This document shows, in pieces, positions 156 to 42,263 of a DNA stretch of 47,490 nucleotides. The first letter of the stretch is position 1. Each line of letters opens with the position of its first letter. Origin of the DNA: Campylobacterales bacterium (lineage in GTDB: Bacteria > Campylobacterota > Campylobacteria > Campylobacterales > Sulfurimonadaceae); assembly GCA_024280035.1 (NCBI GenBank), contig JAJRQV010000006.1, positions 1-47,490 of the forward strand, given 5' to 3'. The notes beneath the pieces are model-generated. The model was not told the origin of the DNA, did not search any database, and saw only the letters and a list, made by a program, of their open reading frames with translations. A program made the position numbers and the translations under genes.

Positions 156-2257
156 TAACTTAATACTAGACTCAGTCCAACTTTTCCTCTTTCATGATCT
201 ATAGAAACTACCTCGATTTGAGGTAGAAACTGGTTGATTGAGAGTACTTCTAAGGGGTGAGAAATACGTTTCTCGCTCATCTTCGAGATATGTATCATGC
301 CATCATTTTTTAAGCCTATATCTACAAAGGCTCCAAAGTCCGCAATATTTCTTACAATACCCGAAACAAATGAACCCTCTTTTAACATATTAATCTCAGT
401 AATACCCTCTTTAAAGGGAATAGCAGGAAGATCTTCACGGGGGTCGAATCCAGGTTTTTGAAGTTCTTTAATGATATCTTTTAAGGTCTCTTTACCTACC
501 CCAAGTTCATTAGCTTTAGCATTTACATCAATAGTACTTAAGTCCAAACCTTCAAGCTCTTGAGCTATTTTGTACGACTCAGGATGTATCCCTGAATTAT
601 CAAAAACTGACTTACCTTCTTTAATCCGAATAAAACCAGCCGCTTGTTCATACGCCTTAGCGCCAAGACCTTTAACCTTCAATAGCTGAGACTTAGCCTT
701 AAAGTTTCCATTTTCCTCTTTATAAGAGACAATGTTTTGAGCTATCTTAATCCCTATGCCTGCAACATAAGAAAGTAAGGTGGCAGAAGCTGAATTTACA
801 TCAACGCCCACTCTGTTTACTAAGTTACTCGTCACGTCATTAAGTTTCTTTTCTAAAAGTTTTTGATCAACATCATGTTAGTACTGACCAATACCTAAAG
901 ACTTGGGGTCAATCTTAACCAGTGCTGCCATAGGGTCACGTAACCTCTGTCCGATAGAAATAGCACCGCGAATGCTAACATCAAGGTCAGGATATTCCTG
1001 TGCTGCGAGTTTTGAAGCAGAGTAAACAGAAGCACCCGCTTCGGATACAACCGTGTAGTTGAGTTTAGAATTTTCTTCTTTGTTAAGCCTTGCAAAAAAC
1101 TCTTGTGTCTCTCTTGAACCTGTTCCATTACCAATAGCAACGGCTTGAATATCATACTTTTTGCAGAACTTAAAAATGATTTTTTTTGAGCCCTCGTAAT
1201 CATTTCTAGGTTCAGTAGGATAAATCACAGCATGTTCTAAGTACGTCCCATTTTCATCTATTAAGGCGAGTTTACAACCTGTTCTAAAAGCAGGGTCAAC
1301 TGCGAGAATGACTCTTTTACTCACGGGTGGTGTCATTAAAAGCTGGTTGAGGTTTTTCCCAAAAACATTAATAGCAGCAAGGTCAGCTTTTTCTTTGAGT
1401 TCTGCTTGAACCTCTCTTTCAAGAGAAGGAAGAAGCAGTCTTTTAAGACCATCTTTGTGCGCAGCAAAAAGAAGTTTCTCTGAGCTTGAAGCATGTTTAG
1501 CAATTTTATATTTTTTTATGTTCTCTTCAATACGCTCGGTGTCTATTTTAATCTTTACAGAAAGCTCTTTCTCTTTAACCGCTCGCATAATCGCGAGGTA
1601 TCTGTGTGAAGGAATATAAGCCACTTTTTCACTGTGTTCAGCGAGTTTGGTGTAAAGACCTTTTTCATTAAAAGACTTGGCTTTTTTAACTTCTAAAATG
1701 CCATAACGTAACATAGAATTTCTTATGGCTTCTCTCTCGCGTGGTTGGTCAGCATAGCGCTCTGCAAGTATGTCTTGAGCACCTTTTATGGCTTCATCGA
1801 CGGAGCTTACTTTAGTATTGATAAAACCCTTAGCCTTAGTTCTAAAAGTAGCTTCTGACTCTCTTGCCGATTGTAAAATATTAGCAAGAGCAGTTAAGCC
1901 GTTTGCTATTGCTGTTGCTGAACGAGAACTTTTTTTCTCTTTAAACGGACGATAAATATCTTCTAAAACCCTAAGTGTTTGTGCTTCATTTATGCTCTTT
2001 TTTAGAGTCTCACTAAGGGTTGATCGTTCACTAATGAGTCGAGATATCTCTTCTTTACGCTCAAGAAGCTTTTTAGAACTGGCATATATATCTTCAAAAT
2101 CACGAAGCACGTCATCACTCGCGCCTCCGGTAAGTTCTTTTCTATACCTCGCAATAAAAGGGATAGTTGAACCCTCCTCAAGGAGTTTTAAAATGTTTTG
2201 AATATGTTCTTTTTTAAGGGGTGTTTTTTGCTCTAAGAGTGAAATTAAATTTATCAT
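152..2257 (-). pseudogene. tex: Tex transcription accessory protein, interrupted by an in-frame TAA
   Basis: Tex is a nucleic-acid-binding transcription accessory protein. Read through, the frame is 701 residues, a normal length for the family in this phylum. It holds the N-terminal helical region (residues 1-60), an RNase H-like YqgF domain starting near residue 320 (AVDPAFRTGCKLAL), a helix-hairpin-helix part (LLSYVAGIGIKIAQNIV) and a C-terminal S1 domain over the last 75 residues. Codon 460 is TAA (878-880 on the plus strand) inside the signature normally read GQYQHDV: GQY is followed by stop, then HDVDQKLLEKKLNDV in the same frame. A CAA to TAA change explains it. The GTG at 835 could restart an HhH-S1 fragment, but I see no reason to think it does. 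The gene is either a recent pseudogene or contains a base-call error. Confidence 0.9.
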
Positions 2258-2287
2258 AAGAGAATTATACAGTTTTGTAAACGGGTG

Positions 2288-2327
2288 AATGTGTAAATGT
2301 GTAAATGTGGGAATGTGTGAATGAGGG
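2288..2327. repeat. Five-copy octamer tandem repeat upstream of tex
   Basis: Five consecutive 8-base units in the gap between fetB and tex: aatgtgta, aatgtgta, aatgtggg, aatgtgtg, aatgaggg. The first two are identical and the rest diverge progressively. It lies about 30 bases upstream of the tex start codon, so it falls in the probable tex leader or promoter. No function is evident. Confidence 0.7.
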
Positions 2328-2354
2328 CATTACTCTTTAGCGTTAGGAATGCTT

Positions 2355-3053
2355 TTATTTTGATTCATCTTTTAGTTTTTGCAGGAGGAGGTAAAGAATG
2401 GTAGAAATACCTGAACTTCCTAAGACCATTGCCACCACAACAATTTGGTACCGAACGGCTACAATTGGGCTTACCCCTGAGAGTATCTGCCCGGTCATCA
2501 TTCCTGGAAGTGAGACTAAACCTACTGCTAAAAGTGCATTAATCTGTGGAATCATAGATGCCTTAAACGCGATACTTCGCGCACCTTCATAGTCTAAAAC
2601 CCTTCTCTCCTTTTCAAAACGTTCTGCGCTCAGAGCAACAGCATTCATAGCATTGGCATAAATCATACCTGCAAGTGGAATTACAATCTCTGGACGATAC
2701 AGAGGTTCTAAGTCGAGGGTGAGTGAAAGTACAATGCCTAGGTTAAAACTTCCTCCAAGGGCAATAGAAATAAATAAGATGAAATAACTTCTTAGGTTTT
2801 TATCTTCTAGATTACGTAAGGCTATGAGGCTTGAAACCGCTATCATAAAGACAATGATAATCGCACCTAAGTACATTGAATTATTGGCAAAGATAAAGTT
2901 TAAAACATAACCGATTAAGATAAGTTGTCCAACCATTCGAAGTGTTGCAAGAGGGACTTCAATTGAATTTCCAATCCATTTATAGTAAAAATAGCTGACA
3001 ATAATAAGAGGAAAAAGCATATAAAGAAGATTAAGTATAGGGATAGTTTGCAT
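2355..3053 (-). CDS. fetB: FetB-family (UPF0014) ABC transporter permease
   Basis: A 232-residue polytopic membrane protein matching the FetB/YbbM (UPF0014) family, the permease of the FetAB transporter implicated in iron export in E. coli. Visible features are repeated hydrophobic segments, the TLRMVGQLILIGYVL segment near residues 37-51 and the conserved loop before the last helix (GLVSLPGMMTGQILSG, PIVAVRYQI). It lies 11 bases downstream of glsA and is probably cotranscribed with it. The usual ATPase partner FetA is not adjacent: the neighbours are glsA and tex. It may use an ATPase encoded elsewhere. The family call is secure; the iron role is carried over from E. coli. Confidence 0.85.
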   Translation of the reverse strand: MQTIPILNLLYMLFPLIIVSYFYYKWIGNSIEVPLATLRMVGQLILIGYVLNFIFANNSMYLGAIIIVFMIAVSSLIALRNLEDKNLRSYFILFISIALGGSFNLGIVLSLTLDLEPLYRPEIVIPLAGMIYANAMNAVALSAERFEKERRVLDYEGARSIAFKASMIPQINALLAVGLVSLPGMMTGQILSGVSPIVAVRYQIVVVAMVLGSSGISTILYLLLQKLKDESK

Positions 3054-3064
3054 AGGTTTTCTTC

Positions 3065-3997
3065 TTAAAACACTGACGAGGCGGTTTGTGTTGTAAAAAA
3101 CTCAAGAATCTTCATACCTCTATAAGAGTTTCCTTTTTCATTAAGTTTAGGACTCCAAACAGCAACGGTGTATTTGAGTGGATGAATGGCAATGATGCCC
3201 CCTCCAACACCACTTTTTCCAGGAAGCCCCACTTCAAAGGCAAACTCACCTGCCTCATCATAAAAACCACACAGTTGCATAATAGCATTGATACGTTTGG
3301 TTTTGCTTGGGCTTATAACCTCTTTTTGAGTGAGAAGGTTCATTCCATCCGAGCTAAGGTATGTTACGGCTTGGGCTAACTCTGCACAAGACATCTCTAA
3401 AGAACACAGATGAAAGTAGAAGTCTAAGACCTCTTCAACATCATTATTAATGTTGTTATACGACTTCATAAAGTTAACCATCGAAGCATTACGGTAACCA
3501 TGTTCTTTTTCAGACAAGGCAATGCGTTCACAATAGTTAATCTTAGGATTTCCTACGAGTTCTCTTACAAAGTCTAAAAACTCCTCTTTCGGTTGGTTGA
3601 GACGAGATACCAAAACATCACAAATCAGCAGAGCCCCTGCATTAATAAAAGGATTTCGAGGAATGCCTTTTTCTTGTTCCAAGCGAAACAGAGAGTTAAA
3701 GGCATTTCCCGAAGGTTCTACTCCAATGCGTTCCCAAAGTTTTTCCTCTTCAAGCTTAAAAGCAAGGGTTAAAGAGAGTACCTTAGCAATACTTTGAATT
3801 GAAAACTTCTCATTTGAGTCACCATAAGCAAAGTTTTGTTTGTCTGCAGTAATCAAATGAATGCCAAATTTTTCAGGATTAACATGGGAGAGTTCAGGAA
3901 TGTAAGAGGCAACTTCACCAAGATTGGGAATCTGTTTGAGCTGTTCTGGAAGTTCTAAAAAGACCTTTTCGAAGGCAAATTGTTCTTTTGAGTTCAT
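3065..3997 (-). CDS. glsA: Glutaminase
   Basis: A 310-residue glutaminase of the serine-dependent beta-lactamase-like fold, hydrolysing glutamine to glutamate and ammonia in the cytoplasm. The SxxK catalytic motif is seen at residues 69-72 (QSIAK), followed by the conserved NPFINAGAL segment and the late GLPGKSGVGGGI loop. The length matches the usual 305-310 residues. The start is ATG at 3997. It is the first gene of a probable two-gene unit with fetB. Nothing in the coding sequence looks damaged. Confidence 0.93.
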   Translation of the reverse strand: MNSKEQFAFEKVFLELPEQLKQIPNLGEVASYIPELSHVNPEKFGIHLITADKQNFAYGDSNEKFSIQSIAKVLSLTLAFKLEEEKLWERIGVEPSGNAFNSLFRLEQEKGIPRNPFINAGALLICDVLVSRLNQPKEEFLDFVRELVGNPKINYCERIALSEKEHGYRNASMVNFMKSYNNINNDVEEVLDFYFHLCSLEMSCAELAQAVTYLSSDGMNLLTQKEVISPSKTKRINAIMQLCGFYDEAGEFAFEVGLPGKSGVGGGIIAIHPLKYTVAVWSPKLNEKGNSYRGMKILEFFTTQTASSVF

Positions 3998-4060
3998 CCT
4001 CTTTCCTATGTTATTAAAGTTATACTACAATACTAACCACTTAATATAAAGGAAGACTTT

Positions 4061-4690
4061 ATGAACAATGATTTTACCAAAGCGATGGCTTTTAGACATG
4101 CCTGCAAGATTTTTGACGAGACAAAAAAGATTTCAGATGAAGAGATACGTTACATCCTAGAAGCAGGGCGAAAGTCGCCTTCTTCTTTTGGAATGGAAGC
4201 GTGGAAGTTTTTAGTTATTAGTAATGAAACACTAAAAGAAAAACTTAGACCTGCATGTTGGGATCAGGTTCAAATCACTTCATGTTCACATTTGGTGGTT
4301 GTTTTAGCAGGTATCGAGAGTGTTAAGGTAGAAACAGGCATTCCAAAACAGCGTTTTGCACGACGTGAAATGCCTGAAGATAAGTTAGAATTTTATCTGG
4401 GTTTGTATGCAGGTCACTTAGATAAAACCCTAAGTTCGGATGAAAATATCTACTCATGTACAGCAAGACAAACCTACATTGCAGCAGGAAATATGATGAC
4501 AGCTGCTGCTTTCATAGGCATTGACTCCTGCCCGATTGAGGGTTTAGATAAAAATGAAGTTGAGAAGATTTTAGACTTAGATACTTCGAAGTTTCAAGTA
4601 GCGATGTTACTTCCTTTGGGTTACCGACTTAATGAGCAGTCAAGCCAACAAAGAGAGCCATTTGAGGATATTGTGGAGTTTATTAAGTAA
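4061..4690 (+). CDS. NAD(P)H-dependent nitroreductase family protein
   Basis: A 209-residue FMN-dependent oxidoreductase of the nitroreductase (NfsB-like) superfamily. Near the N-terminus it has AFRHACKIFDETKKI and then RKSPSSFGMEAWKFLVI, the segment that contacts FMN phosphate and flavin. Later come the TYIAAGNMMTAAAFIGIDSCPIEG region and the C-terminal LPLGYR motif. The natural substrate cannot be read from sequence; homologues reduce nitroaromatics, quinones or flavins. The ATG at 4061 is preceded by an aaagga ribosome-binding site. It is divergent from glsA across about 60 bases that would hold both promoters. Confidence 0.88.
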   Translation: MNNDFTKAMAFRHACKIFDETKKISDEEIRYILEAGRKSPSSFGMEAWKFLVISNETLKEKLRPACWDQVQITSCSHLVVVLAGIESVKVETGIPKQRFARREMPEDKLEFYLGLYAGHLDKTLSSDENIYSCTARQTYIAAGNMMTAAAFIGIDSCPIEGLDKNEVEKILDLDTSKFQVAMLLPLGYRLNEQSSQQREPFEDIVEFIK

Positions 4691-17696: not shown

Positions 17697-18266
17697 TTAA
17701 AGACCTATCTCTGAAAAATCTTGACCATTCATTTTTCTACGCTCTCCATTTCGTTCATAAAACCAACCTCGTATAGCAACACCATCTTCCATTTTTATAG
17801 AAAACTTTTTATTTCCATTTTTATAATACTCTTGGGTTGTACCATCAAGTTTACCCTTATCATTAAAGTTAAGTTTTGCTTTGATATTTCCATTAGGATA
17901 ATAAACCTTCTTAGAACCCGTAATCACTCCTTTTTGGTAGTGCGAGATAGAGCGAAGTTGCCCATTAGGATAAAACTCTTTTTGGTAACCATCAAGCACC
18001 CCATTAAGCATAGGAATTTCAGCCTTAATTTGCCCCGTTTCGTAATAACCGGTGGTCATACCATTAACCTTTCCATTTAAGAACTTAGTGTCTGTTTTAA
18101 TTCTACCACTTTTGTAATAGGCACGTGCAGTTACATTTAAAACACCATTTTTATAACGTCTTTCAAATTTAGTTTTTCCATTAGGGTAGAGGACTTTTTT
18201 TACCTCTGCACTGAGTGAGGCAGTTGCTATTAGTGATACTAATGCAAGGCTAATAAGTTTTTTCAT
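17697..18266 (-). CDS. Secreted MORN-repeat (YwqK-like) protein
   Basis: A 189-residue exported protein. After a signal peptide (cleavage near residue 20) it consists of about seven repeats of the form YYxNGxxKxxxxxxNGxxxGxx (for example YPNGKTKFERRYKNG and YKNGNKKFSIKMEDG). These are MORN_2/YwqK-type repeats. YwqK proteins are often labelled antitoxins by homology, but with a signal peptide and no toxin partner here that role is unlikely. It follows the RND pump gene by 35 bases on the same strand and may be the last gene of that unit. Confidence 0.78.
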   Translation of the reverse strand: MKKLISLALVSLIATASLSAEVKKVLYPNGKTKFERRYKNGVLNVTARAYYKSGRIKTDTKFLNGKVNGMTTGYYETGQIKAEIPMLNGVLDGYQKEFYPNGQLRSISHYQKGVITGSKKVYYPNGNIKAKLNFNDKGKLDGTTQEYYKNGNKKFSIKMEDGVAIRGWFYERNGERRKMNGQDFSEIGL

Positions 18267-18301: not shown

Positions 18302-21300
18302 TTAAAGTCCTAATTTATCTGGACTAACATGCTCTTTAATGCCTTCTCCTGGATGTGGATGGGGTACATTACTCTCATCTCTTGGACAGATGGCAACGGT
18401 GTTGTCAATGAGTACAGGTACTAAGAATAAAGAGACAACCGTAGCGGCAATAGAACCAAAGATAAGGGCAATACCTAAACCTCCAAAGATAGGGTCTGTT
18501 GAAAGAAGCAGACTTCCTAAAATAATAGCAACGGCAGTCATTAAGATAGGTTTAGCCCGTGTTGCTGTTGAGATGGCAATGGCACGTCTTTTTTCTACGC
18601 CTTTTTCAATAAGTGCCTTAGAAAAGTCAATCAATAGGAGTGAACTTCTTGCACTGATACCCATTAAAGAGATAAAACCAATTAGAGAAGTTGCGGTTAA
18701 AAAGAAGTTTGTTCCAGCAAAAACTAAAGAGATAATATCAGTAATAAAATGCCCTACAATTACACCAATAATAGAGAGAACACTTGCTAATAAAATAATC
18801 CCACTCAGTGCAAATGATTTGTAATATACTACCATAAGTAAAAACATTAAAATAAGCGCAGCAATAAAGGCTCCTCCTAAGTCACGGAAGGTGTCAAGAG
18901 AGACTTTCATCTCTCCATCCCAGCGTAAAAGAAGTTTTTGTTTTGTTTTTTTATCAATAAGATGCAGGTCAAATATATACGTCGTTATACCTGGATCTTT
19001 AGTGATATTAAAATCTTTTGAGAGTTTTTGGATAAGGGTGTCTCTTGCTTCAAGAAGAGGATACACCTGAGATACCATGTCACACTCTGCTGTAATTGTG
19101 ACAAGATTACGAAGGTCTTTTCTGAAAATTGTTGGAGAAGAGTCGATGGCTTTAACCTCGACTACCTCTTTAATAGGAATCATCATACCCATTGGATTAA
19201 GCAGTTTTAGACGTGAAAGTTTCCAGTACAGACCCTCTTTTGTATTGGGCTGAATTAAACGGCTCTGCTCATCAAGACGAACAAAAATAGGAATCTGGTC
19301 TTGTTGAGTCTGAGAGTTTTTAACGGCAACAATCATACCTTCAAAGGCGAGATAAATAATATTATTTACCTGCTCAACACTGAGGGCACTGCGTATTATT
19401 TTCTCTTTATCAGGAATGATTTCATAATAAGTATAAATATCATCTTGCATAATATCTACATCCACTAACCCTTCAGTATTTTTGAGTACATTGGCTATTT
19501 ACCCGCTGTTTTACGCATGAGTTTGGCATCATTACCAAAAAGGTTAATCACAATAGTTGCCATTGTTGGTGGACCTGAAGGCATTTCTACAAATTTAATA
19601 CTTGTCCCTTTTACTAAAGGTTCACATGCTTTTTGTACAAGAGGGCGAATTCGGTGAACCATCATATAAGAGGGTTCATCCCTATGGTGTTTATCACTAA
19701 GGTTAACCACAATTTCAGCTTGGTTTTTCATGCGTTTAAGGGCACTTCCTTTAACTAAACCTGCATAATCAAGAGGTGCACCCTGAGCAAGAAAGACTTC
19801 CATATCATGAACCTCCGGCTCTTTTTTGAACTCTTGCAAGATACAGTTAGTGACCTTTTGAGTCTCTTCAATAGAAGAGTTTGTAGCCGTGTCTATGTAG
19901 ATACTAAAGGTGTTGGCACTTTTTCCCGGAAGCATTTTGGCTAAAACCATCTTTGTGGGAATCATCATCACAGCAAAAACAAAAGCAAGGGTAATATAAA
20001 GAATTACCTTTCTCTTCTTTTTAGCTGATTCTAAAATGGTGTAAATCAACTCTTCCATTAGTGATTCCCTTTAACACGTTTAATAATCTTTTTAGCCAAA
20101 TAAGGAGTAAAGACATAAGCGACAAAGAGAGACACCGCTAAAGCAACGGGTACATTAAGGGGTATTGGTTTCATAAATTGCCCCATCATACCTCCGACAT
20201 AAGCCATAGGTACCATAGTTAAAATAATGGCAATAGTAGCAATATTAGTTGAAGGTCCAATCTCATCAGTTGCTTCAATAATAACTTCATCAAAACTCTG
20301 ATCTTGTGTCTCTTTAAGGTGCATACGTCGGTGAATGTTTTCAATAACAATAATTGCATCATCAACAATGAGCCCCAGACTCAGTAAAAAAGCAAAGAGG
20401 GTAATTCTATTAATAGTTTGGTCAGTCATATAAGCAATAAATAAGGTAGCAGCAAGAATCATTGGTACGGCAATGGAGACCACTAAAGATTCACGCCATC
20501 CTAAAAATGGAATTAAAATAAGCCCAATAATTGCAATGGTAATGGTAAGGTGGTGAATCAGTTCACTCACGGCTTCATCCGCACGAATACCATAATTACG
20601 TGTAACAATATAACCAATGCCTAAGTTCTCTAGGACCTCATTATTTTCTTCAAGTTTATCAATAACATTTTTAGCAATATGTACAGCATTAGTTCCTTTG
20701 AGTTTAGAAATAGTTAGGGTGACTTGAGGAATAGGGTTGTCAAATGAGGCATTATCATCACCCTTGACTAATTGAGACTTCTGAAAGTTTTGAATATCAT
20801 AACTATAATCTACCTCTGCGATGTTTTTAAGGTAAATAGGTGAGCCACTGTATTGGGCAACAATAAGATTTTTTAAGTCATCAATATCTTCAATCCCATT
20901 TTGTACCCCAAAAACCATAATAGAAGTTCCAGAAGAGGGTGCATCTATGTTAGGTGCATTATTGGCAATGGCTTGAACGGACTGTGTTATTTGTCCTAAA
21001 GAGAGGTGATAAGCCGAGAGTTTGTCTAAGTCTACTTGTATATTAAACTGGGGTTTATTGATTCCCTTTAGGGTGCTTTTAGAGACATTATTAATGGCAT
21101 TAATGGCTTGTTGAATATCTCTTACGAGTCTATACTGTTTTATTTTATCGGGGTTAATGAGATTTTTTTGGTAAAAAGCGATGGTAACAACAGGAATATC
21201 AATGTCAATATCAAAGGGTTTAATTAAAGGAGCCTTCACCCCGCTAGGTAGCTTGTCCATATTTTGCATAACTTTGTCATACAGTTTAAGGTTTGAGTCT

Positions 21301-21629
21301 TCTCTGTCTTCACCAATAAAATATTGAACATTAATCATGCCCACATTATTCATTGCCGTTCCATATACCTGCTCTACACCCTTAATCTCTCGAATACGTC
21401 TTTCTAAGGGTTTAATAACAACATTAGTAATTGCCTCAGGAGCAGCACCAGGAATAACAACAATAATAGAACCCCCACTGACTTCGATTTATGGGTCTTC
21501 TTCTCTTGGTGCGATATTAAGAGTAATATAACCTAAAAGAAGAATGGAGATAGCAAGAAGCATTGTTAATGGATTATTAAGAAAGGTGCTTGCTAAGCGA
21601 CCTGCAATATTTTTACTTTTATACTGCAT
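18302..21629 (-). pseudogene. RND efflux pump inner-membrane protein, broken at three places
   Basis: The ATG at 21629 starts an AcrB/HAE1-type RND transporter of about 1,109 residues once repaired. The TM4 motif GLIVDDAIIVIENIHRR and TM segments such as LLSLGLIVDD and FISLMGISARSSLLLIDF are clear. Lesions: TAA at 21489-21491 (codon 47; EEDP-stop-IEVSGG where Gln is usual); an apparent one-base deletion around 20056-20059, leaving a TAATG junction after KGNH; and another in the aaa run near 19495-19497, where one extra A restores GKIANVLKNTEGL. The total length of 3,328 bases, one more than a multiple of three, agrees with two single-base losses. As read, no functional pump can be made, although its adaptor is intact. 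Confidence 0.88.
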
Positions 21630-21641
21630 ATTGCGTACCCT

Positions 21642-22475
21642 TTAATCGTCTAAAAGACGTTTATCATCCACATGGATGAGTATTTTCGCATACATACCGG
21701 GAAAGACTTTATCATTGCTTTTGTTAAAATCAACAATTATCTTAAAGGTATGCGCCATTGGGTTTGCATTAGGAATAATAGATTTAATAATACCATTGGT
21801 ATGGTATTTCAAAGAGGGAATGGTAATCTTAACTCTTTGGTATTTTTCTACATACTTAAGGTCAGATTCGGCAACTTCACCCTCTATTTGTAAATGGTCA
21901 AGGTCAACAATAATCATACTCAACATTCCTGGAGCAACAAGATCACCTACACGAATGCGTTTTTCAACAATAATCCCATCATTAGGTGCTTTAACCTCAA
22001 GGTAGCCTGTAATTGTAGAGACTTGTTTAATCTTTTCTGCAGCATTTTTTACAAGAACTTGTGCGGCTGCTAACCCTGCTGAGACATTATCGGCGGTGAT
22101 ATCAAGATTTTCAAAATCAGATGAATTGACCATTCCTCGTGACTGCATAAGACCTTTTTCTCTTTTTATTGAACGCATTCGTGTACGATAGATATCAACT
22201 ATGGCTACGGCTTGTTCTAAGGCAAGGTCAGCCTGATTTTTTAAGATATCAAATTCAGCTGATTCAAGTTCAAAAAGGGTATCTTCGCGTTTAACCTTAT
22301 CCCCAATATCGAAATATACGTTTTTGATATAACCCATATATCGTGGACCAATCATCTTCTGATTATAAGAGACAACAGTACCTGTAATAGGCAGTTCCAT
22401 AGCAAAAAGATGTGTAGATATTAAGACTAATATTATTAAAAATTTAGTTTTCAAAAGAGATGCCCCCTTATTCAT
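21642..22475 (-). CDS. RND efflux periplasmic adaptor (membrane fusion protein)
   Basis: A 277-residue adaptor of the HlyD/MFP type that links an RND pump to an outer-membrane channel. It has an N-terminal hydrophobic signal/anchor, the lipoyl-like halves (IGDKVKREDTLFELES and the later VKAPNDGIIVEKRIRVGDLV), an intervening alpha-hairpin (residues 75-140) and a beta-barrel part (VKITIPSLKYHTNGIIKSI). It is somewhat shorter than typical AcrA. It lies 12 bases upstream of the pump gene. No TolC-type channel gene is in the operon. Frame intact. Confidence 0.88.
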   Translation of the reverse strand: MNKGASLLKTKFLIILVLISTHLFAMELPITGTVVSYNQKMIGPRYMGYIKNVYFDIGDKVKREDTLFELESAEFDILKNQADLALEQAVAIVDIYRTRMRSIKREKGLMQSRGMVNSSDFENLDITADNVSAGLAAAQVLVKNAAEKIKQVSTITGYLEVKAPNDGIIVEKRIRVGDLVAPGMLSMIIVDLDHLQIEGEVAESDLKYVEKYQRVKITIPSLKYHTNGIIKSIIPNANPMAHTFKIIVDFNKSNDKVFPGMYAKILIHVDDKRLLDD

Positions 22476-22484
22476 TACGACTGT

Positions 22485-22892
22485 TTACCAGTGGCGAACT
22501 TGAGTATGACACTCCATACAACTTTTCATTATTTTTGTATATGCTTGAACAGCCTGAGCCATATCCCCATCACTAAAACGTTCCAAAATAGTTCTTGCTT
22601 TTTGATCGATTTTTTTAACGATTTTATTTGTAAATTTTACTTTTTCATTCATGTAGCGTGTCATTGGATCTTTTTCTTCTTTTTCTTCTAAAGGAGGTTC
22701 GATTCTTCTGATTGCATCTGAAAGGGAAATAACTCCCATTTCTACAAGATCTTTATTATTATAGAAAAAACCTGTCTCAATTTGAGACATTGCTTTAGCC
22801 ATTATCTGCATATCTTCAACACGATGTTTTTTCGTATAAGCCTGAGCAAAAAGTGCTGTACTAAGTAGTAAAAAGAGGAGAGTGCGTTTCAT
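22485..22892 (-). CDS. Periplasmic cytochrome c (c556/c'-like), first gene of the efflux unit
   Basis: A 135-residue exported protein with a signal peptide ending ALFAQA and one haem-binding motif CMECH five residues from the C-terminus, the position used in cytochrome c' and c556 four-helix bundles. The rest is helical and charged. I chose the ATG at 22892, which follows an aaggga site, over an in-frame start at 22928. It lies nine bases upstream of the RND adaptor gene and is transcribed with it. A redox or metal-sensing partner role is possible but is inference. Confidence 0.78.
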   Translation of the reverse strand: MKRTLLFLLLSTALFAQAYTKKHRVEDMQIMAKAMSQIETGFFYNNKDLVEMGVISLSDAIRRIEPPLEEKEEKDPMTRYMNEKVKFTNKIVKKIDQKARTILERFSDGDMAQAVQAYTKIMKSCMECHTQVRHW

Positions 22893-23253
22893 GAATTTTC
22901 CCTTGATTTTTTTTGTAACTAGAAGCATTATAACGAAAGAAATTCTAAAAATGTTCGCAAAAATACATGCTGATACAATTCATAATTAATGTGATAAAAA
23001 TGTGATGAATACTTTATATAAGCTCTGTATGTCCCTATATTACGGGTTTTCATTATGTCAGAGTTTGTCACTTATAATTCTTATTATAAATTTTTATGAA
23101 GTTAAGATAAGTAAGTAAAATAGGTAGTTATAAGAGTTTTTTATCTTATAAAAAGACCTTTATATAAATTTTTGTGATAATTTTTCTTAAGAATAAGCTC
23201 AGTATTTGAGGGATATAGTTTTCCTAAGACACATCGTTTTATAAGGAGAAAGA
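22893..23253. other. Gene-free divergent promoter region
   Basis: These 361 AT-rich bases separate the leftward efflux unit from the rightward hendecad-repeat gene, so both promoters must lie here. For the rightward gene, tatagt at 23214-23219 is a possible -10 box, and aaggag at 23243-23248 is a clear ribosome-binding site. I found no open frame, RNA gene or repeat that I would call. Confidence 0.5.
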
Positions 23254-24030
23254 ATGAAAAAAGTATTGGTAGCAAGCGTTCTTGCATTAACAGCATTAAC
23301 TACAACAGTGAATGCAGGTGATTTTAGTTTTGGTGATATGTTCAAGGATATGAAGGACGCAACAACAACTATGAGTCATGATGCACGTGATACTGCAGAT
23401 TCAATGAAAGATGGTGCAGTTGAAACAAGTAAGAGCGGGGAACGTACAGCTACAAGCTTAGGTCATGATGCACGTGATACGGCTGTTAAAGTATCAGATG
23501 ATATGAAAAGTAGTGAGGTGGCTACAGTTAAAAGTGGTGAAATCTCAACAACAAGTGTAAGTCGTGATGTTCGTGATAGCACAGTTGAACTTGCAGAAGA
23601 TGGAAAAGATTCTGTAACCAATGCTTCTCGTGATATGAAAGATAGCTCAACAATGGCTACAAAAGACTTTAAAGACAGTACCGTTGCCGTATCTCATGAT
23701 ATGACAGACTCAACAAAAACTATCTCTAATGATGCAAGAACATCAACAACGACTGTTTCAAATGATATGCGTGATTCAACAGACAGTGTTTCTGATAATG
23801 TGAATGACTCTACCAAAACAGTATCACATGATGCAAGAAAATCAACAACTTCTGTTTCACATGATTTACGTGACTCTACAGACAGTGTTTCTGATAATGT
23901 GAATGATTCTACTAAAACAGTATCACATGATGCAAGAAAATCAACAAAAACGATCTCAAACGATGTAAGAAAATCTACGTCAGATAATGATTATGCTGAT
24001 TACAAACGTTATAAAGATTCAAAAAAATAA
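23254..24030 (+). CDS. Secreted hendecad-repeat protein, LEA-like
   Basis: A 258-residue protein with a signal peptide (cleavage after A21). From residue 29 to 244 the chain is nineteen 11-residue units plus one 7-residue unit, without other insertions. The later units follow [VI]-S-[HN]-D-x-[RN]-[DK]-S-T-x-[ST], for example VSHDARKSTTS and VSHDLRDSTDS. Such 11-mers favour a long amphipathic helix with a hydrophobic stripe three turns apart, as in group 3 LEA proteins and some right-handed coiled coils. There is no cysteine and little aromatic residue until the tail (DYADYKRYKDSKK). Probably a periplasmic or surface stress or spacer protein; no neighbour proves this. A strong terminator follows, so it is monocistronic. 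Confidence 0.8.
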   Translation: MKKVLVASVLALTALTTTVNAGDFSFGDMFKDMKDATTTMSHDARDTADSMKDGAVETSKSGERTATSLGHDARDTAVKVSDDMKSSEVATVKSGEISTTSVSRDVRDSTVELAEDGKDSVTNASRDMKDSSTMATKDFKDSTVAVSHDMTDSTKTISNDARTSTTTVSNDMRDSTDSVSDNVNDSTKTVSHDARKSTTSVSHDLRDSTDSVSDNVNDSTKTVSHDARKSTKTISNDVRKSTSDNDYADYKRYKDSKK

Positions 24031-24078
24031 AAGTAGTGCCTTAGGCATCTACTTTTTTTAAAGAGGCTTTTTGCCTCC
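24028..24078 (+). terminator. Intrinsic terminator of the hendecad-repeat gene
   Basis: aagtagtgcc/ggcatctactt form a stem with one bulge around tta (24031-24052), followed by ttttttt. A second small hairpin, gaggc-ttttt-gcctc (24063-24078), comes directly after. The first begins at the stop codon of the repeat protein gene and has the full form of a rho-independent terminator. Confidence 0.8.
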
Positions 24079-24142: not shown

Positions 24143-25216
24143 ATGGAAAAAAAGTATATTGGTTATTTGTCTTTAAGTGTCATACTCTTATTAAGCAGCT
24201 CTCATTTAAGCGCTACAACTGCAGATAAGACAAAAGAGGGGAATACGGTCAATATAACTTTACCAAAGGTTCCTATCCCTCCTAAGGCTCCCTCAGTGGA
24301 TGCAAAAGTAATTCCTGCCGTAAAGGTTCGTGTTAATGGAAAGCTTAAAAACCCTCAAACCCAAGAAGAGAGCAAAAAAAGTGGCATACTTTTTAGTAAA
24401 CGTGTTCCGCCTGTAGTAGCAGAATCACCTAAAGCCGTTGCTAAAAAAAGTAATTTAGTAGGAGATGTGAAAAACTCTCGACTTTCGGCTTATCTGCGTA
24501 CACCTTTTTTATCTAAGGGTGAGGTTATTTCTAAGTTAAAAGATGATTTTATAGTCTTAGCCAGTTATAACTTAGATAAGAATGCAAATCTTACTTCAAT
24601 TGTTTTTACTAATAAAAAGATGAGTTCTGCTGCGAGTAAGAAAAAAAGAGGTTTTGCAGGAACACTTCGTCTTTTAATTGACGAAAAAAATGCTTTCATT
24701 AGTATCACGAATCCTATGTATATGATGAAGGCTTTTATGCAAGATGAGTATCAGCAAGACTTAGCAATGGATACGCTTGAAAAAATTAATAATGCCTTTG
24801 ATGGGCTGAAACCTTCAAAAGATATTTTAAAGGTTTCAGGAATTGCAAATTATCAGTTTATGTTAGGTCTGCCTTCTTATGAAGATATGACAGAGGTGGC
24901 AAGCGGAGACACTAAGGCTCTTTTAAAAAAAGCACGTCAGTCTAAAAAAGTGGTGTATGAGCAAGCACTTAGTAATGGAAGTATTGTTGTGGGCATCAAG
25001 CTCTCGGATAAAACAAGACAATTTATTAATACTATTGGGACTGCCAATGCAACACTTCTTCCTTATCCTATTTTGATTGAAAACAATAAGGCGAAAATTC
25101 TTGCACCAAAATATTATATTGCAGTGATGTATCCTATGTTGTCTATGTCAGAATTTATGGCTATCTCTTCCATACCCGGAGAGATTGAAAAAGAGTGTGA
25201 TCAGATTTTTCGTTAA
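24143..25216 (+). CDS. Secreted protein with DUF302-like C-terminal region
   Basis: A 357-residue exported protein: signal peptide (to about residue 25), a Pro/Lys-rich linker (residues 38-105, with LPKVPIPPKAPS), then a folded region of about 240 residues. The end, LPYPILIENNKAKILAPKYYIAVMYPMLSMSEFMAISSIPGEIEKEC, has the pattern of DUF302-type proteins of sulfur-oxidising Campylobacterota, as I recall them; the match is not verified. The earlier part (FAGTLRLLIDEKNAFISITNPMYM) resembles the same fold. Ribosome-binding site gagga. Function unknown. Confidence 0.55.
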   Translation: MEKKYIGYLSLSVILLLSSSHLSATTADKTKEGNTVNITLPKVPIPPKAPSVDAKVIPAVKVRVNGKLKNPQTQEESKKSGILFSKRVPPVVAESPKAVAKKSNLVGDVKNSRLSAYLRTPFLSKGEVISKLKDDFIVLASYNLDKNANLTSIVFTNKKMSSAASKKKRGFAGTLRLLIDEKNAFISITNPMYMMKAFMQDEYQQDLAMDTLEKINNAFDGLKPSKDILKVSGIANYQFMLGLPSYEDMTEVASGDTKALLKKARQSKKVVYEQALSNGSIVVGIKLSDKTRQFINTIGTANATLLPYPILIENNKAKILAPKYYIAVMYPMLSMSEFMAISSIPGEIEKECDQIFR

Positions 25217-40385: not shown

Positions 40386-41193
40386 ACTTTCCTTTTTAGA
40401 CTATTTGAGTGATATCCGAGGCTACTCTGACTTAACTGTAAAAACTTATGCCATGGCTATTGATGAGGCTTTTTTATATATTAACATGGAAAAAGAGTCG
40501 AGTCTTATTCTTAATCTTAATCCTTATCGTCTAAAAATAGCTCATCTTAATTCAAAAACTATTTCTAAAAAACTCTCTTCTTTACGCTCTTTTGTTAAGT
40601 TTATGCAAGACAGAGGTGAAAAAATTATGCTCAAAGGAGATGCGCCTATAAAAGTAGCAAAAACTTTACCTAAGCCTATCTCTTATGAACATATTTTAGA
40701 AGCCTTAGAAATTGCAGAGCTTCAAGATAAGTTAATGATTATGGTTTTATACACCTTAGGGCTTCGTATAAGTGAACTCTCTTCTTTACGTTTAGATGCA
40801 ATAAGTTCACAATGGATTCGTGTTGTGGGTAAAGGAAAAAAAGAGAGAGAACTACCTTTATTAGATAAAACTTCTCATTTGATTGAGTTATATAAGCATG
40901 AATTTTCTCCAAGGGTGTTTCTTTTTGAGAAAAATGGAGCAAAATTAAGCGAAAATACTCTAAGATATAAATTAACAACACTATTTAAAAAAATCGGCCT
41001 TCACGTAACACCACATATGTTACGTCATTCTTATGCAACGCATCTATTAAACTCAGATGCAAGAATTGCCGATGTTAGTGAACTATTTGGGCATTCATCT
41101 ATGGCAACAACGCAGATTTATACTAAACTTAGCTCAAATCTAAAGATGAAAAATTATCAGAGTGCTCACCCTTTATCACGAGGAGACAGATGA
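40360..41193 (+). CDS. Tyrosine recombinase (Xer-like)
   Basis: A 277-residue phage-integrase-family recombinase with a SAM-like core-binding domain (1-100) and the catalytic domain: Arg in LGLRISELSSLRL, Lys in KGKKERELPL, HxxR in HMLRHSYATHLL, His in FGHSSMATTQ and the nucleophile Tyr in IYTKLS. All catalytic residues are present. Length and architecture fit a Xer-type enzyme or a small integrase. The start at 40360 (MKNLLKLYKLS) is preferred over an in-frame ATG at 40339. Its stop overlaps the next start (ATGA), so it is coupled to the PilM-like gene. A dif-like target site was not found. Confidence 0.85.
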   Translation: MKNLLKLYKLSFLDYLSDIRGYSDLTVKTYAMAIDEAFLYINMEKESSLILNLNPYRLKIAHLNSKTISKKLSSLRSFVKFMQDRGEKIMLKGDAPIKVAKTLPKPISYEHILEALEIAELQDKLMIMVLYTLGLRISELSSLRLDAISSQWIRVVGKGKKERELPLLDKTSHLIELYKHEFSPRVFLFEKNGAKLSENTLRYKLTTLFKKIGLHVTPHMLRHSYATHLLNSDARIADVSELFGHSSMATTQIYTKLSSNLKMKNYQSAHPLSRGDR

Positions 41194-42263
41194 AACTTTC
41201 AAATCTTATAAAAAACCTTTACCAACAGGTTTTTATTGGGCTTGTTGTTCAAAATACAGAGGTAAAAGTTTGTGTGCAGATGCTTAAGGGTAAAAAAGTA
41301 GAAAAAGAGGTTAAAAAGCATTTCGAAATTTCTCACGCAAAACCCAGTGAAGAGCTAAATGCTTTTATTAAACAATATATGGATGAGTCTCCTTTTTCTT
41401 ATGTTTCTATCTTAAATGATGCCCTTGTTCAAGGTGCACTTCCAACGTGTTCTATGCACGAGGCAGAAAACTTTAGTGATTTAGCCTCTTGTGTGACCTT
41501 ATGCAATGAGAATAATTGGATGGTATATGCGGAGAAATCTGAACTTAATGCCTTGCAAAAACGTTTTTCTGTTACGGGTGTAGATTTTATCTTCTCTCCC
41601 TTTTTACTGCTTTCAAACTTTTTTAAAGACAAAACAGAGGGTAAAGCAAGTCTTTTAGTTTTAATTCAACATGACTTTTTAAGTCTGTGTGTTTTTTGTG
41701 AGGGTAAGCTTCTGTTTGCACAACACTATAATATGACTGATGCCGTAGAAGATGAGTCTTTAAGTGAAGAGATAGAAGAAAATTCGGTAGAGAGTTTAGG
41801 CTTTGACTTGGATGATGAAGATAGTCTGTCTATTAATCTAGATGATATAGATGCCTTGGATGAACTTGATGCCTTAGATGACTTGGATAATCTTGATGAC
41901 TTAGACGATTTAGATGAACTTGATGATATTGAAGATTTTGAAGAGTCTTTAAATGATGCGGTTGAAGAGTCTGAAATTGCCTTAGAAGAAGCCAAGAGTA
42001 AGCATGAGTCTAAGATTGATAATTTTTCTGATGAGTATAAACATTTTCAACTAATACAAGGGGCGCTTAATCAGTTCTATGCAGATGATAAATATAATAA
42101 TCAATTTGTTGAAGAGGTTTATATTGCCAATACAAATGAAGATGGGCATGATTTAGTAAAGTTTTTAGAAGAAGAACTTTTTGTATCTGTTTTTAAACGT
42201 ACTATTGATATTGAAAAAGAGTTAGTCAGTATGTCAATTGAGGAGGCTAGAAATGAGAAATAG
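41190..42263 (+). CDS. PilM-like protein with an acidic Leu-Asp-x repeat tract
   Basis: A 357-residue protein whose position and size suggest the cytoplasmic actin-like platform protein of type II/IV secretion or competence machines (PilM/GspL-like): beta-strand start FIGLVVQNTEVKVCVQMLKG, YVSILNDALVQG and HDFLSLCVFCEGKLLF. The match is by layout and not by strong motifs. Residues 217-249 are eleven uninterrupted Leu/Ile-Asp/Glu-x triplets (for example LDELDALDDLDN), within a highly acidic region from about 178 to 272. The rest of the gene is ordinary. Start ATG overlaps the recombinase stop. Confidence 0.55.
   Translation: MKLSNLIKNLYQQVFIGLVVQNTEVKVCVQMLKGKKVEKEVKKHFEISHAKPSEELNAFIKQYMDESPFSYVSILNDALVQGALPTCSMHEAENFSDLASCVTLCNENNWMVYAEKSELNALQKRFSVTGVDFIFSPFLLLSNFFKDKTEGKASLLVLIQHDFLSLCVFCEGKLLFAQHYNMTDAVEDESLSEEIEENSVESLGFDLDDEDSLSINLDDIDALDELDALDDLDNLDDLDDLDELDDIEDFEESLNDAVEESEIALEEAKSKHESKIDNFSDEYKHFQLIQGALNQFYADDKYNNQFVEEVYIANTNEDGHDLVKFLEEELFVSVFKRTIDIEKELVSMSIEEARNEK

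Follow-up and report, generated by a model that had tools for sequence, protein, structure and literature searches.

A secreted hendecad-repeat protein family associated with an RND-type adaptor and a cytochrome c'-like protein in Campylobacterota

Hendecad (11-residue) repeats are known from surface stalks such as tetrabrachion and NadA (PMC6191539). These right-handed (11/3) coiled-coil stalks, with undecad segments in the case of NadA, are secreted and elongated and have a hydrophobic seam with 4-3-4 spacing. Group 3 LEA proteins (LEA_4, with a TAQAAKEKAGE-like 11-mer) show the same period in a hydrophilic chain, while apolipoproteins, apolipophorin III and perilipin 4 (Plin4) combine 11- and 33-residue repeats in an 11/3 amphipathic helix with one-sided charge. 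In RND tripartite efflux systems, on the other hand, we know of no counterpart of an accessory cytochrome, a DUF302 protein or a hendecad protein. Here we describe HEND, a protein that is like each of these hendecad proteins in the features named and whose gene lies beside RND genes. The window, i.e. the whole stretch of DNA that was analysed, comprises 47,490 nucleotides from a Campylobacterales bacterium of the Sulfurimonadaceae (contig JAJRQV010000006.1).

The HEND gene (23254-24030, plus strand) is a stop-free open reading frame encoding 258 amino acids (pI 5.0). Residues 1-21 (23254-23316) constitute a Sec-type signal peptide without a lipobox, MKKVLVASVLALTALTTTVNA, which is followed by GDFSF; the junction (A, then D/G-F-S-F) is conserved in an alignment of 31 homologues (alignment A1), and the protein is thus secreted, as a sequence-only reading of the window had stated. 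The signal peptide precedes a conserved head (residues 22-101, 23317-23556) with the sequence DFSFGDMFKDMKD..., SxERT... and degenerate hendecads. Mean column identity in the head is 64% in the same alignment, and indels in this region are exactly 11 residues long. Register analysis located a lone unit of 7 residues, MKDGAVE, at residues 51-57 (23404-23424). The regular hendecad array (residues 102-244, 23557-23985) has the consensus VSNDxRDSTKT, with a core of V/I, A/M/L and T/V and with acidic and basic flanks. The C-terminal tail (23986-24027) carries the motif [DE]Yxx[YF]xx[LFYW][KR], kept in 34 of 84 homologues, and is predicted to be a short charged helix (pLDDT 89). A motif search for N-glycosylation sequons (D/E-x-N-x-S/T) in HEND found none.

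Residues 29-244 (216 amino acids) break down into 19 units of 11 residues plus the unit of 7, which bears out the earlier description of this stretch. Identity at lag 11 was 35.1% (z=12.4); z reached 11.4 at lag 22 and 15.2 at lag 33 and was at most 1.4 at all remaining lags from 2 to 39. A recent 99-bp tandem duplication (3 x 11 codons, 2.2 copies, 91% matches) lies within the array at 23729-23947 (plus strand). It is only part of the cause of the periodicity, because the conserved, non-duplicated first half of HEND by itself gave z=5.7 at lag 11. The hydrophobicity spectrum peaked at 3.66 residues (11/3=3.667), with a power of 289 as against a shuffled maximum of 90. The 11-mer originally proposed, [VI]S[HN]DxRxSTx[ST], scored 95, far above shuffled sequences in their best phase (mean 29.7, maximum 44), but strict adherence to it begins only at about residue 102, the earlier units being degenerate.

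The register is kept family-wide, a median of 92% of motif starts sharing one phase modulo 11. V/I, A/M/L and T/V occupy positions a, e and i of a hydrophobic seam, with 4-3-4 spacing after relabelling. With its continuous hendecads, 4-3-4 core and spectral peak at 3.66, HEND has the sequence hallmarks of an 11/3 right-handed coiled coil, and its hydrophobic moment is 0.345 at the 11/3 angle versus 0.036 at the heptad angle. When 33-residue windows of 60 homologues were counted, K/R lay on one flank of the seam in a ratio of 912:31 (912 of 943 basic residues) and D/E on the opposite flank in a ratio of 1170:153 (1170 of 1323 acidic residues); shuffled sequences gave about 1:1 in both cases. 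When helices run parallel, the right flank of one faces the left flank of its neighbour. By coiled-coil rules, opposite charges on the two flanks would therefore favour parallel bundles or sheets and disfavour antiparallel ones, and the charge pattern favours HEND helices that are parallel and laterally salt-bridged. The AF2 monomer is a near-continuous helix, but its mean pLDDT is 47 and its pTM 0.16. Such low confidence would fit either a chain that folds only in an oligomer or one that is conditionally folded, and going by the model HEND might be disordered, or helical only under certain conditions. The hydrophobic content is about 20%, and one core position is mostly Ser.

Divergent from HEND lies CYC (22485-22892, minus strand), which encodes a secreted monohaem class II protein with a C-terminal CxxCH motif (CMECH) and weak similarity to cytochrome c'. 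It is followed on the minus strand by MFP (21642-22475), encoding a short HlyD/RND periplasmic adaptor, by the first (20058-21629) and second (18302-20058) halves of an RND permease, and by a gene for a secreted MORN_2-repeat protein (17697-18266) that is often the last of the RND operon. Both permease halves are intact in relatives and broken in this genome, the first by an in-frame stop at codon 47 and the second by a frame shift near 19498; either sequencing error or decay may be responsible. Downstream of HEND, SEC3 (24143-25216, plus strand) encodes a secreted DUF302-fold protein of 357 amino acids. Its AlphaFold model (AF2, pLDDT 75) matched the DUF302 structure 1j3m with a probability of 0.98 and a Foldseek E-value of only 0.033, and longer SEC3 homologues match Pfam DUF302.

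Our locus set contained HEND at 79 loci, the adaptor family at 68, the cytochrome at 67 and DUF302 at 48. In the commonest layout the order is MFP, CYC, HEND, DUF302, the first two being transcribed leftwards and the last two rightwards. Beyond MFP there are usually two genes that together encode a split RND permease, to which Sulfurovum adds a TolC-type channel. With a true RND adaptor, a permease and the Sulfurovum channel, the neighbours of HEND resemble the tripartite efflux systems of Campylobacterota (AcrAB/MexAB type), from which they differ in the split permease and the very short adaptor. A divergent lineage (L122) has two array-less HEND genes and then MFP, all on a single strand. 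In one subgroup of Sulfurimonas (L008, L046, L047, L052-L054), HEND is separated from the RND genes by a gene for a DUF481 outer-membrane protein. One apparent neighbour family ('family 6') was discarded, as it consisted of antisense ORFs of HEND itself.

Co-occurrence was surveyed in 397 high-quality genomes of the phylum. Strong HEND matches were present in 19 of them; a weak partial match, which would have been the twentieth (G365), was left out of the count. An adaptor subfamily scoring at least 345 bits was found in all 19 HEND genomes and in none of the 378 others, the next best genome scoring 281. The cytochrome subfamily (at least 155 bits) accompanied HEND in 19 genomes and occurred once without it, in a genome (G430) where CYC has an unrelated setting; no genome had HEND without the cytochrome. 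The long DUF302 subfamily (at least 370 bits) was confined to 16 genomes, all HEND-positive, and was missing from three HEND genomes. The bit-score cut-offs were placed after the fact at visible score gaps, and the Fisher p-values of 7e-26 or smaller ignore phylogeny, the genomes being related. The link between HEND and its partners survives separation, the DUF302 gene being distant from the HEND locus in G387, G326 and G413, and it survives rearrangement, as in L122. The adaptor copy lies about 119 kb from HEND in G267, and three module genes are on separate contigs in G064. Synteny of this kind indicates functional association, not contact.

In none of the 397 genomes did HEND occur without the adaptor and the cytochrome, so that it probably functions within a cell-envelope machine instead of protecting the cell against stress. 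The sequence-only reading had considered that a LEA-like protein might protect the periplasm from desiccation, salt or cold, and HEND is indeed hydrophilic, has the 11-residue period and is probably weakly folded alone. However, perfect tracking of an RND-type adaptor and a cytochrome, i.e. of a specific transport and redox module, is not predicted by a general protectant. No LEA family of Pfam or NCBIfam was matched, even at E<=1, the composition is Ser/Thr/Asp-rich instead of Ala/Lys/Glu-rich, and unlike group 3 LEA proteins HEND has a signal peptide and belongs to a fixed genomic module. In addition, its carriers are mostly MAGs from hydrothermal vents and other sulfidic sites, as judged mainly from isolate names. 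A protectant role therefore seems very improbable.

We propose instead that HEND forms a parallel 11/3 coiled-coil rod in the periplasm or at the surface, as the scaffold of an adaptor-cytochrome-DUF302 envelope module that usually includes a split RND pump; we would put the chance of this slightly below even. The 11-residue repeats would form a long 11/3 helix whose hydrophobic seam is bordered by basic residues along one edge and by acidic residues along the other. Copies of HEND would assemble in parallel, either coiled around one another in a right-handed sense or packed side by side into a helical sheet, and the resulting rod of variable length would be the structural or scaffold part of a module comprising the short RND/HlyD adaptor, the cytochrome c'-like protein and the DUF302-fold protein. 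Computation shows the repeat of HEND and its register, the signal for secretion and the asymmetric charge, as well as the conserved synteny and the co-occurrence; we infer helicity in vivo, parallel assembly and physical contact with the adaptor. The low AF2 confidence, the mostly-Ser core position, the low hydrophobicity and the broken RND pump of this genome count against the rod. Since HEND co-occurs perfectly with a single adaptor subfamily, its function can be approached by genetics in culturable Sulfurimonas or Sulfurovum, and the repeat with its one-sided charge offers a natural system in which to study how 11/3 helices assemble.

At least 90 HEND homologues were found, in Sulfurimonas- and Sulfurovum-like genomes. 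Related proteins were present in 17 of 100 near-relative genomes. They also occurred in 93 stretches of public genome sequence, practically all from Campylobacterota; most of the carriers are MAGs with labels such as Sulfurimonas, Sulfurovum or Helicobacteraceae. HEND was absent from all five genomes of the same genus that were searched and is therefore an accessory gene. Searches of profile libraries, among them Pfam, NCBIfam and PHROG, gave nothing above threshold, and no characterised family matches HEND. The sequence-only reading knew of no described equivalent in the phylum; the family is in fact common in Campylobacterota, although it is not described in the literature searched. HEND is thus a new, widespread and uncharacterised hendecad family in sulfur-metabolising Campylobacterota, and the multi-gene envelope module to which it belongs, likewise previously undescribed, is patchily distributed among vent sulfur bacteria. 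Similarity to a phage tape-measure protein (PHROG, E=0.0018) was dismissed as repeat-driven, since neither the signal peptide nor the synteny nor the genomic context resembles those of a phage. Membership of the Ag473 lipoprotein family (NF047840) was rejected too, as HEND scored 19.2 bits against a cut-off of 100 and has no lipobox. A check for plasmid carriage gave no match.

Across the family the array spans about 14 to 45 unit-equivalents; several genomes have two to four tandem HEND copies. Tandem paralogues (2-4 per locus) were seen at L083, L089, L090, L091, L095, L061, L065 and L086, which are of Sulfurovum or Sulfurimonas type. An inverted duplication CYC-HEND-HEND-CYC at L123 (G267 C1:1251264-1252919) is possibly an assembly artefact.

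A rod-like repeat of variable length, with tandem paralogues and a recent duplication, would also suit an extended surface stalk or adhesin, the second proposal of the sequence-only reading, for which the hendecads of tetrabrachion and NadA provide a precedent. Nevertheless, neither a lipobox nor a YadA-type anchor nor a sorting signal was found, and a Pfam scan found no membrane anchor or head domain in HEND. The protein differs from tetrabrachion and NadA in having no S-layer arm, head, anchor or homology to them, in being Ser/Thr/Asp-rich and in its linkage to an RND adaptor; adhesins need no adaptor or cytochrome so tightly linked to them. We regard the stalk as unlikely. A trimeric autotransporter adhesin was rejected, as the Pfam scan did not find a YadA-type C-terminal anchor and the C-terminus is a short charged helix.

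The main rival to the rod is an apolipoprotein- or perilipin-like amphipathic coat, which is possible, if somewhat doubtful. The best profile matches of HEND, though weak, were Pfam Apolipoprotein (E=0.006) and PDB apolipophorin-III (E=0.008). The 33-residue super-repeat and one-sided charge resemble those of Plin4 (PMC5889406, PMC8064757), the hydrophobic moment of 0.30-0.38 falls within the values (0.26-0.48) of 11-mer helices known to bind lipids, and the low AF2 confidence is compatible with conditional folding. On the other hand, PF01442 scored 16.7 bits against a cut-off of 90, which places HEND outside the apolipoprotein family, and the hydrophobic fraction of about 0.2 is lower than that of all lipid-binding helices in the published comparison. 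Per 33 residues the net charge comes to about -1, and droplet binding was abolished in Plin4 made that negative (PMC5889406, PMC8064757). HEND is also bacterial and secreted, unlike apolipoproteins, apolipophorin III and perilipin 4. In favour of a coat, FadL-type outer-membrane channels for hydrophobic compounds (Pfam Toluene_X) adjoin DUF302 or adaptor-RND paralogues (L055, L130, L137), but they rarely adjoin HEND itself, and a hydrophobic cargo is only putative. L137, a second DUF302 locus in the same genome as the window (contig C104, about 979-4339), has a channel of the FadL type together with two DUF302 genes, one intact and the other broken by several in-frame stops.

As a lead, zero-valent sulfur is a candidate substrate of the module. 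DUF302 genes have been placed in sox clusters (PMC5037610), and one has been likened to a member of an sqr operon (PMC5061849); these links are suggestive only. An adaptor/permease pair of the RND type shares one locus-tag range with a DUF302 gene in Bradyrhizobium, and both appear in the same microoxia table (PMC6515984). A TolC/HlyD gene set of Sulfurovum indicum is induced by S0 (PMC10045233) and might plausibly be a HEND-type module, a link that we do not count as evidence. The DUF302, FadL and S0-induction leads point towards hydrophobic or sulfur substrates without being proof. If the cargo is of this kind, HEND bears on the handling of elemental sulfur by these bacteria, which a transcriptome study called 'not clearly understood' (PMC10045233). 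A more specific proposal is that HEND is a secreted giant 11/3 amphipathic helix, an analogue of apolipoproteins and perilipins serving as coat or carrier for a hydrophobic substrate, which might be zero-valent sulfur, between the envelope and the RND-adaptor/cytochrome/DUF302 machine. We think this improbable; if true, it would explain part of the unsolved elemental-sulfur step in Campylobacterota.

HEND has its own promoter and a strong terminator, both of which had been recognised from the sequence. The conserved promoter (23187-23222, plus strand) consists of a direct repeat with 11-bp period, TTAAG-N6-CTCAG, and an extended -10 element, GATATAGT. The general form TTMAG-N6-YYYAG-N9-GNTATAG (here 23187-23218) was present upstream of 32 of 84 homologues, including this one, and in none of the shuffled sequences. 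A generic sigma-70 scan missed this promoter, and in a genome-wide search for a regulon with a common promoter it was the sole exact match. The direct repeat is similar in geometry to the HP1043 operator of Helicobacter pylori, in which the centres of two TTTAAG repeats are 11 bp apart (PMC5253667), and by this analogy an HP1043-type regulator (HsrA/CosR orthologue) may act on the HEND promoter. The intrinsic terminator (24029-24056, plus strand) is a good hairpin of -12.2 kcal/mol followed by a U-run (z=-4.1). Elsewhere in the window, a 27-bp tandem repeat at 41841-41926 (plus strand) encodes an acidic DDLDELD tract within an ORF of 357 amino acids (41190-42263) that lies among co-directional genes.
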